Notes under the pieces: generated by a model | The model's input: only the letters and a program-made list of their open reading frames with translations | What the model was told of the DNA's origin: nothing | Database searches by the model: none | DNA from: a virus | Direction: 5' to 3' (one strand) | Virus record (IMG/VR): IMGVR_UViG_3300047562_001284 | Location: 1 to 27,728 of that record | Length of the DNA stretch: 27,728 nucleotides | Translations under genes and position numbers: made by a program | Part shown: one piece after another, positions 2,567-4,072 of the stretch | Position numbering within the stretch: the stretch's first letter is position 1 | Layout of the letters: each line of letters starts with the position of its first letter

Positions 2567-2579
2567 CGGCTGTTTTTTT
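2552..2579 (+). terminator. Rho-independent terminator after the gp26/gp51-like unit
   Basis: An 8-base-pair perfect stem, CAGCCGTT (2552-2559) with AACGGCTG (2565-2572), a 5-base loop and a run of seven T (2573-2579). It overlaps the stop codon of the small gp51-like gene. It also sits just past the end of the convergent minus-strand gene ending at 2578, but the T run makes it directional for plus-strand transcripts. Confidence 0.88.
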
Positions 2580-3087
2580 ATTTTGTTACTTTATAACCTG
2601 CTGCTTTAAGTTGATCCATTGCTGCTTTTAGTTTAGGATCTACACCTCCACGCATTGGAGGCATTTGAGGAACATCAGGTTGCGCAAATTTACTTTTACG
2701 TCCGCCAGCACCTTGTGATTTAAATCCGCTTTGTACGGCTTTTTTTAACAGTTCATCAACTTCAGGATTGCTCAATGGTGCTTCATCTGGTGTGCCACCT
2801 GCTTGACGAATACCTTGTAAAGTTTTATCAACAAACCCAGTCGGTAATCCTTTTTGTCCTAAGAAGTTGATCAATTCATCAGGCTGTAGTTGACCTTTAG
2901 CAATGCCACTACCTGCCATCCAAGTAGCAAGATCTTTTTTCATAGCATTTGCATCAGTACCTACATCAAGTTTTGCTTTAGCACCTGCACTACCTAACTT
3001 ACTTGCTATTCCAAGACCAGCACGTTTTAACATACCCATAGGTTTTTCGTTTACTATTTCTTCACTAATAATATCATAAACTTTCAT
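2578..3087 (-). CDS. Unrecognised 169-residue protein, late-expressed
   Basis: I do not recognise a function. The frame could start further upstream, but the ATG at 3087 (MKVYDIISEEIVNEKPMGML) has AAGGA eight bases before it and is preferred. Visible features: a short N-terminal motif KVYDIISE, a Gly/Ala/Lys-rich stretch (residues about 20-45), a central helical segment, then a Gly/Arg/Lys-rich linker (SQGAGGRKSKF) followed by a Pro/Met-rich stretch and a C-terminal helix ending LKAAGYKVTK. No signal peptide or membrane segment is seen. A late-promoter motif CATAAATA at 3131-3124 precedes it, which suggests a virion or assembly role. It is alone on its transcript and converges on the gp26/gp51 unit. 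Confidence 0.8.
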   Translation of the reverse strand: MKVYDIISEEIVNEKPMGMLKRAGLGIASKLGSAGAKAKLDVGTDANAMKKDLATWMAGSGIAKGQLQPDELINFLGQKGLPTGFVDKTLQGIRQAGGTPDEAPLSNPEVDELLKKAVQSGFKSQGAGGRKSKFAQPDVPQMPPMRGGVDPKLKAAMDQLKAAGYKVTK

Positions 3088-3098
3088 TTGAATTATCC

Positions 3099-3126
3099 TT
3101 AACACTGCAATGTTTGTTTATATTAT
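3099..3126 (+). promoter_or_regulatory. Possible sigma70-type promoter for the plus-strand RNA candidate
   Basis: TTAACA (3099-3104), a 16-base spacer and TATTAT (3121-3126) resemble a host-type promoter on the plus strand. A start about seven bases downstream would fall at the first hairpin of the structured region. The -10 overlaps the minus-strand late box, so the two promoters would compete. Weak evidence in AT-rich DNA. Confidence 0.3.
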
Positions 3127-3131
3127 TTATG
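3124..3131 (-). promoter_or_regulatory. Late-promoter-like box CATAAATA before the 169-residue gene
   Basis: Minus-strand CATAAATA matches seven of eight bases of the T4 late box. It lies 37 bases upstream of the ATG at 3087, the same geometry as the TATAAATA box of the gp26-like gene. A perfect 8-bp hairpin (3132-3150) abuts it on the upstream side. Confidence 0.6.
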
Positions 3132-3380
3132 AGTTGAACTACGTTCAACTGTGTTATCGCTTACGCTCAACACATATACTTCGTATTTGATTAATATTTA
3201 AAACAAGCATATGCAAAGCATATGCATTTAATATTATGTAGATTGATCTGGTCAGACGGAACCTCTTGTAAGGTTCCTCCTGCTCAAACATTATGTGAGT
3301 ATCACCAGCCGAGACATTGGAAGTAGGTGTTTTCCGCTGTACAATGGGCTCTGACCTTTCCCAACCTACGTCGACATCAA

Positions 3381-3429
3381 AATATAGTGTATACGCTATA
3401 ATTTACAATTATAGTTTGTACGCTATATT
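3381..3429 (+). repeat. Long hairpin containing an imperfect 17-base tandem copy
   Basis: Twenty-two of twenty-three positions pair (19 Watson-Crick, 3 wobble, 1 mismatch at 3394/3416), closing on a TAC loop at 3404-3406. The same DNA reads as two direct copies of a 17-base unit, 3384-3400 and 3411-3427, identical at 15 of 17 positions, because each unit is itself nearly palindromic. Confidence 0.8.
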
Positions 3430-3575
3430 CTTACCTGCTGCTTCGTTCCTAGTGCAAACAGTTTTTATGTACAATATGCGGTGTTTCGATAGCCAACAGT
3501 CTATCTACATCAATCGGTAGCCCAATTTGTCTGTTGGCTTCCACACTCTGGTGTGTCGATCAATGTGTTACGTGT

Positions 3576-3595
3576 GTAGGGATCGCCTACTTTTT
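3576..3595 (+). terminator. Plus-strand terminator-like hairpin ending the structured region
   Basis: GTAGG (3576-3580), loop GATCG, CCTAC (3586-3590) and five T (3591-3595). The stem is only 5 bp, so it is modest. The loop GATCG is complementary to CGATC at 3557-3561, which could form a pseudoknot or an alternative fold. On the minus strand there is no T run, so it would act only on plus-strand transcripts, which converge here with the GIY-YIG gene. Confidence 0.5.
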
Positions 3596-3628
3596 CCACA
3601 GCGGTATTTCTAAACTGGCCCGCCAACC

Positions 3629-4072
3629 TTATGTGTTGGATTGTTCTGCCTGTTGCTCTAAAAGTGCCTGACGAAGTTTGTCTGAACCGCCTACACGGAC
3701 GTTAATAATACCATTATAGTATTCGTCTGTTTCTAATACACGCCTATCAAATTGTTCTCTTGCCTCTATGTAAGACATTTCTGCTCTACTTTTACAAAAG
3801 TAAAGTATCTCACGTGTAAATTTTTCTTCGCCTAATGCTTCTACGTCTGCTTGAAGTTTATCTGATGACCCCCAATAAGTTTGCCAATCAGATTCTTTGT
3901 AGCCTCTGCGTTTATTTTTTTTGCCTTTGAGAGGTGGCTTGGTTGTTTTAAATCGTGCTAGTTTTTTGCCTATGTACTTACGATTGTTTGTTAAGTTAGT
4001 AATAAGATATACAAAACCTTCAATGCCTTCGGGTATTTCAATAATTTCTTTACCTTTGTATGTCCAATTCAT
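3629..4072 (-). CDS. GIY-YIG family nuclease
   Basis: A 147-residue protein with the GIY-YIG nuclease signature near its N-terminus: FVYLIT (residues 20-25) and, after a short turn, KYIGKK (32-37). A basic stretch (KTTKPPLKGKKNKRRGY) follows, then WQTYWGSS and an acidic helix with YIEAREQFD that could supply the metal-binding Glu. The family includes homing endonucleases (T4 I-TevI, Seg) and T4 DenA; it cuts DNA using one metal ion. There is no separate DNA-binding domain, so it is short for a homing enzyme, and I cannot say whether it is mobile or a domesticated phage nuclease. It is last in the gp55-gp47-gp46 operon, three bases after the preceding stop codon, with only a weak ribosome site. 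Confidence 0.8.
   Translation of the reverse strand: MNWTYKGKEIIEIPEGIEGFVYLITNLTNNRKYIGKKLARFKTTKPPLKGKKNKRRGYKESDWQTYWGSSDKLQADVEALGEEKFTREILYFCKSRAEMSYIEAREQFDRRVLETDEYYNGIINVRVGGSDKLRQALLEQQAEQSNT

Follow-up and report, generated by a model that had tools for sequence, protein, structure and literature searches.

The gap behind the SegE-type endonuclease gene of the window (the whole stretch analysed here, an IMG/VR virus record of 27,728 bases) holds a multiply pseudoknotted RNA of about 420 nt on the minus strand, which is class A of a superfamily of RNAs that occupy one slot downstream of SegE genes and carry identical 7-nt repeats. We put the probability of this identification at about 0.95. 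If it is true, a superfamily of large phage RNAs has so far gone unrecognised, with only a fragment of one branch, the Polynucleobacter-1 motif, having been catalogued. Large structured RNAs with unexplained jobs are a puzzle in bacterial and phage biology, and the two 7-letter copies, which change together across several sequence classes, provide a sharp clue, as an explanation of this rule should expose the mechanism.

The gap is bounded by two minus-strand genes, the endonuclease gene and a gene starting at 3105 (GTG) or 3087 (ATG), leaving 523 bases (3106-3628) or 541 bases (3088-3628), respectively, without a convincing open reading frame, in agreement with the gene-free gap of the original prediction. 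A protein-coding gap was rejected, the frames across it being short throughout and the homologues being separated by insertions and deletions. Both strands fold better than all of 100 dinucleotide shuffles, with z-scores of -3.85 for plus and -4.17 for minus. The Rfam search of the window yields no matching family, including the GOLLD, ROOL and HEARO models as well as the group I and group II intron catalytic cores, and ARAGORN finds no tRNA or tmRNA gene at the RNA. A sub-threshold group II match (E 0.53) is seen in a single relative (L327). The window alone thus gives no assignable known class, as had been predicted, while the claim of a structured non-coding RNA is now strongly supported by conservation in relatives and by covariation.

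Relatives were fetched through the neighbouring 147-aa protein, and most contigs encoding a relative of it have the same gap sequence after the gene. When 34 non-redundant gaps are aligned, variable hairpins separate blocks that are nearly invariant. The structure derived from 61 sequences is composed of 13 helices and 67 pairs (Table 1), with several pseudoknots formed by helices P0/Ph, X/Y and K. In total, 95.2% of the cells are paired, 34 pairs show changes at both partners, and the double-changed cells number 415 against a shuffled mean of 135, the counts being taken on the same 61 sequences from which the structure was derived. Not one of 500 shuffles reaches any of these measures, and sliding the partners by 1 to 3 columns lowers the pairing to 33-44%.

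Two of the helices had been proposed from the window alone. Both the long-range stem 3250-3256/3350-3356 and the possible pseudoknot of 3323-3328 with 3364-3369 are real, being kept in all aligned relatives with 99.8-100% of cells paired on the minus strand, and many further stems co-vary. The top covariation among all column pairs (ranks 0 and 1) belongs to helix X, where all four pairs show double changes and the two columns of the strongest pair, 3340/3471, lie 131 nt apart. Helix X forms a pseudoknot with helix Y. Double changes are also found in 5 of the 6 pairs of P0 (97.2% of cells paired) and in 5/5 pairs of Ph (94.4%).

The RNA starts inside the last SegE codons and ends about 100 bases short of the next gene. 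Its 5' block is still conserved in L012, L027 and L083, where another open reading frame splits the endonuclease from the RNA, which indicates that this block is a part of the RNA rather than of the gene alone. Hairpins H1 to H3, which separate the RNA core from the next gene, may constitute a 3' tail of the RNA; their stems persist despite wholesale sequence change, and the H2 motif occurs at most once per large contig.

Table 1. Features of the class A RNA and its neighbouring gene (window positions).
Feature	Position	Strand	Observation
SegE-type GIY-YIG homing endonuclease gene, 147 aa	3629-4072	-	Pfam SegE_GIY-YIG, E=6.9e-34
Class A SegE-linked structured RNA, ~420 nt	3233-3652	-	5' end near 3652; conservation ends (3') at 3233
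5' block AGGCA..CAATCCAACACATAAGG	5' end of class A RNA	-	conserved even where non-coding
Helix P0, 5' strand, within endonuclease ORF	3634-3639	-	pairs with 3493-3498 in Ph loop (pseudoknot)
Helices Pa, Pb, Pc of 5' domain	3572-3624	-	covarying
Helix Pd (3560-3565/3508-3513) around hairpin Pe	3508-3565	-	double changes
Hairpin Ph (3501-3505/3488-3492), loop pairs with 3634-3639	3488-3505	-	covariation
Long-range helix X (3468-3471 with 3340-3343, extends towards 3482/3330)	3340-3471	-	covariation
Hairpin P2 with conserved GGAACGAAGC region	3435-3461	-	covarying stem
Interchangeable hairpin module	3381-3429	-	variable in sequence and length; missing in some relatives
Core: helix Y (GUAGGU 3364-3369/ACCUAC 3323-3328) around UGGG/CCCA hairpin	3323-3369	-	near-invariant
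Loop pairing K: GGUCAGA (3350-3356) with UCUGACC (3250-3256)	3250-3356	-	99.8% of cells paired
Direct repeat copy 1, ACATAAT	3290-3296	-	equals copy 2 in the window
Hairpin H4 between direct repeats	3257-3278	-	98.6% of cells paired; varies as G-U on minus only
Direct repeat copy 2, ACATAAT	3233-3239	-	last conserved part
Flanking hairpins H1 (3132-3150), H2 (3153-3172), H3 (3207-3225)	3132-3225	-	between RNA core and next gene

The helices were found by a Watson-Crick-only scan, which makes no assumption on the strand. Across the 13 helices of the 61 sequences, aligned in the minus sense, the non-Watson-Crick cells of the core helices are G-U in 360 cases on the minus strand and in 61 cases on the plus strand, the latter mostly in Pc and Pe, both of which are poorly aligned. 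The core folds better as minus in 58 of 62 distinct core sequences. On the basis of these two counts the RNA is assigned to the minus strand, which is the strand of the neighbouring gene. Single helices follow the same pattern: the wobbles of Ph are G-U on minus, the conserved tandem G-U of Pd would be A-C on plus, and the first pair of K is G-U in 49/61 and G-C in 12/61 sequences on minus.

The original prediction had instead placed an independent RNA of about 460 nt with its own terminator on the plus strand, a version we consider very improbable. Although this strand has a promoter-like site at 3099-3126 and a terminator-like pattern at 3576-3590, and H3 tolerates plus-strand wobbles, both the G-U cells and the core folding oppose it, and the supposed terminator with its T-run sits within the conserved helix Pc, with a covarying helix crossing it and extending beyond to 3634-3639 in the endonuclease ORF. 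The wobble argument for plus came from the hairpin at 3381-3429, which is the interchangeable module of Table 1. With the plus orientation and the plus terminator both unsupported, the transcript of about 460 nt is unsupported as well.

A hairpin of the type TATACGCTA.ACCGTATAT forms this variable module in some class A RNAs (L205:3001-3047, L206:3001-3045, and about 3384-3429 in the window). It is also found between roseophage genes and within the tRNA cluster of Caulobacter phage CcrBL9, and is possibly a mobile hairpin. The roseophage and Caulobacter phage matches were rejected as relatives of the RNA, sharing the hairpin only.

The SegE gene lies directly upstream of the RNA, preceded by a 90-aa gene, gp46 (SbcC-like), gp47 (SbcD-like) and a late sigma factor. 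The slot order gp47-gp46-[90 aa gene]-SegE-RNA is shared within one lineage of large T4-like phages. Comparison of the baseplate and gp46 proteins likewise places large T4-like phages closest among the cultured ones, e.g., Salicola phage SCTP-2, Sinorhizobium phage Phosso and PA5oct. Among the 178 core matches listed, 169 have the endonuclease at most 577 bases away in the expected orientation, and none of the remaining nine has more than 900 bases of room on the endonuclease side, many contigs being fragments. gp46 is upstream in all RNA-bearing loci checked, and Melnitz-type SegE genes, which have another gene context, are without the RNA. A mobile cassette was rejected, the RNA-bearing loci being syntenic. 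Phage records and PHROG 447 often label SegE-type proteins as NAD synthetase, while Pfam identifies them as GIY-YIG endonucleases. For the seg genes of T4, embedded promoters have been described (PMC2988022).

On the other side of the RNA, a minus-strand CATAAATA at 3124-3131, between hairpin H1 and the next gene, resembles a T4 late promoter, and the next gene, which follows the RNA, may thus have its own promoter at this candidate site. The gene itself (2578-3105 and homologous positions) varies in length and sequence among relatives, from about 157 to 520 aa.

The core pattern is present in at least 119 IMG/VR stretches and in two contigs from a single metagenome bin of the Red Sea, and the RNA is single copy per genome. 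The contigs L207 (335 kb) and L208 (153 kb) of a Neomarinimicrobiota bin contain the phage locus and are probably phage DNA that was binned with this genome. Among 50,697 phage records searched, no isolate has the core, and blastn yields no cultured-phage homologue. The class A model gives no match in Phosso, PA5oct, Vibrio phage 2.275.O and Melnitz, in a search that also missed two class B contigs. Unannotated gaps near gp46, both without an Rfam match, are found in Phosso (1,014 bases, L262:7411-8424) and PA5oct (663 bases, L263:7868-8530), being candidate places for further RNAs.

Other SegE loci have divergent RNAs in the same slot, which we group into classes B to E, the class labels beyond A and B being based on few sequences each. 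Class B is found at some SegE loci (L035, L080; 53 contigs among the matches listed). The covariance model R1, built from class A alone, finds class B at the homologous place (L252, 21.8 bits, E=0.0017, the E-values being rough), with weaker, aligned matches in L228, L209 and L231. In L078, L207 and others, a class B-like or other 5' domain is joined to a class A core. The slots of classes C, D and E were found by a scan with the Melnitz SegE protein. A class C sequence, L327, matches Polynucleobacter-1 (Rfam ID RF01718) with 63.4 bits (E=3e-11) directly after SegE, and the record L309 matches it at 107.8 bits, also directly after SegE. Counted from the 5' end of the class C RNA, RF01718 accounts for ~141 nt and no more; by its position, Polynucleobacter-1 forms the 5' domain of this longer RNA behind SegE. 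The window RNA does not match the RF01718 model, neither at the gathering score (37 bits) nor at E<=5, and is therefore not filed under this family.

In all classes, a hairpin is flanked by two 7-nt direct repeats that change together. The class A copies are identical over 7 nt in all but 3 of 107 elements, with ten different 7-mers in use, and 15 of the 17 distinct repeat pairs are identical compared to 2.6 expected from shuffles. The class B repeats are identical in 31/34 cases, and the same identity with other letters is seen in classes C to E (TGCCAAG, TGTCAAG, GGTGAAG, AGATAAT, ATATGAT and others). We know of no RNA family in which two 7-letter copies change together. Most 7-mers of classes A to C fit NNAURAW, with both copies thus containing UGA or UAA, and class D departs from this pattern. 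An early guess that the repeats pair with each other fails, since they change as identical copies. No complement of the 7-mers is located at a consistent place nearby in cis and the 7-mers show no clear enrichment in the flanks, so pairing between RNA segments in cis does not explain the identity. Since the copies are identical and not complementary, three explanations suggest themselves: one RNA copy pairs with the DNA template of its twin copy, both copies bind a single partner, or a template jump is involved.

The first of these is the mechanism we favour, tentatively and with low confidence, by analogy with ColE1 RNA II and with R-loop priming in T4. In ColE1, an RNA II loop seeds an RNA-DNA hybrid, where an upstream segment identical to a downstream one pairs with the template DNA, and the RNA described here likewise has an upstream segment identical to a downstream transcribed segment. 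T4 primes replication from R-loops (PMC3016281). The RNA would be transcribed together with the SegE gene or from a promoter inside SegE, and its fold, through the GGUCA/UGACU pseudoknot and the hairpin, would place repeat copy 1. Copy 1 would then pair with the DNA template strand at copy 2 during the transcription of that stretch and seed a stable RNA-DNA hybrid (R-loop), as the RNA II loop does. Such a hybrid would act in some DNA process at that site, with replication priming being the most plausible one, as at T4 origins with R-loops. Against this R-loop mechanism, 7 bp make a short hybrid, and an R-loop seed would need nothing like the elaborate structure of this RNA.

In nine contigs from classes A, C, D and E with lengths of 55-236 kb (G001-G003, G005, G006, G008, G013-G015; L348-L408), the cumulative GC skew reaches its global minimum 3.5-6.2 kb upstream of the RNA, with the minimum of G006 falling at the contig end. 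This fits a nearby origin and suggests a candidate replication origin region. However, the minimum coincides with a divergent switch in gene direction and not with the RNA itself, and coding-strand bias alone may therefore explain it.

A large RNA acting in trans on its own or with a protein, and comparable in kind to GOLLD or ROOL, is also conceivable, though we would not expect it to prove right. The repeats would then be twin sites for one phage-specific partner, a phage or host RNA or protein, which would explain why they change together, and the large size, several pseudoknots, interchangeable hairpins and domains, and single copy per genome agree with such a role. The partner would have to change along with the repeats, however, the 7-mers have neither complement nor enrichment near the locus, and half-changed pairs are almost missing, although a wobble-tolerant RNA partner should permit them. 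A rather unlikely explanation is a 3'-untranslated element of the gp47-gp46-SegE messenger, controlling its end, stability or translation. No 3' element of such size and with such pseudoknots is known to us, the identical repeats are left unexplained, and the RNA stays intact where another open reading frame intervenes after SegE (L012, L027, L083). Its orientation and single strict location directly downstream of SegE, overlapping the gene end, would nevertheless fit, as would the listing of Polynucleobacter-1 as probably cis-regulatory (PMC2864571, Table 1).

The position of the RNA could also indicate a guide or scaffold of the SegE endonuclease for RNA-assisted homing, where the internal copy and the identical 3' edge of the element are arranged as a guide and a target would be. 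SegE adjoins the RNA wherever room exists, and the Melnitz-type relatives have neither this context nor the RNA. We regard such a role as improbable, since SegE, at 147 aa, is a simple GIY-YIG protein lacking additional domains, the locus is syntenic rather than mobile, and no RNA requirement is known to us for the T4 Seg endonucleases. Most remote is a DRT2- or DRT10-like system, in which a reverse transcriptase would copy the RNA and jump between templates, with the repeats marking the ends of the template. Identical short repeats at both ends of a structured stretch would suit it, but the nine large contigs yield no RVT_1 match while the controls were detected, and template jumping is unlikely for lack of a reverse transcriptase domain there. 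A common rule for the superfamily is possible but doubtful, namely that the internal 7-nt copy has to match the 3' edge because the RNA pairs there with its own DNA, starting replication through an R-loop, or because it guides SegE to that site.

GOLLD and ROOL are large ornate RNAs, some of them located in phages, which the class A RNA resembles in being long, pseudoknotted and mostly from environmental DNA, whereas the gene context differs and the window has no Rfam match. Identical repeats have, to our knowledge, not been described for GOLLD or ROOL. ColE1 RNA II and the R-loops of T4 origins would work alike, with no sequence relation to the RNA. The free-standing seg homing endonucleases of T4, including segE, belong to the same family as the protein beside the RNA, but T4 segE is located between inh and uvsW (PMC2988022), whereas the window gene comes after gp47-gp46 and is joined to the RNA. 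Polynucleobacter-1 was found in Burkholderiales and fresh-water DNA, with an RNA nature and a cis-regulatory role both rated as probable (PMC2864571, Table 1; Weinberg et al. 2010). This motif, orphaned since 2010, can now be placed in large T4-like phages, immediately after SegE, as part of a bigger RNA. The window RNA differs from the class C RNAs bearing it in the sequence of the 5' domain and of most of the core. What the two have in common is their place right behind SegE on its own strand, with gp47-gp46 further upstream, along with a comparable 3' module and the pair of identical 7-nt direct repeats that bracket a hairpin close to the 3' end. Judged from these relatives at the same locus, the window RNA appears to be distantly tied to the orphan family Polynucleobacter-1.
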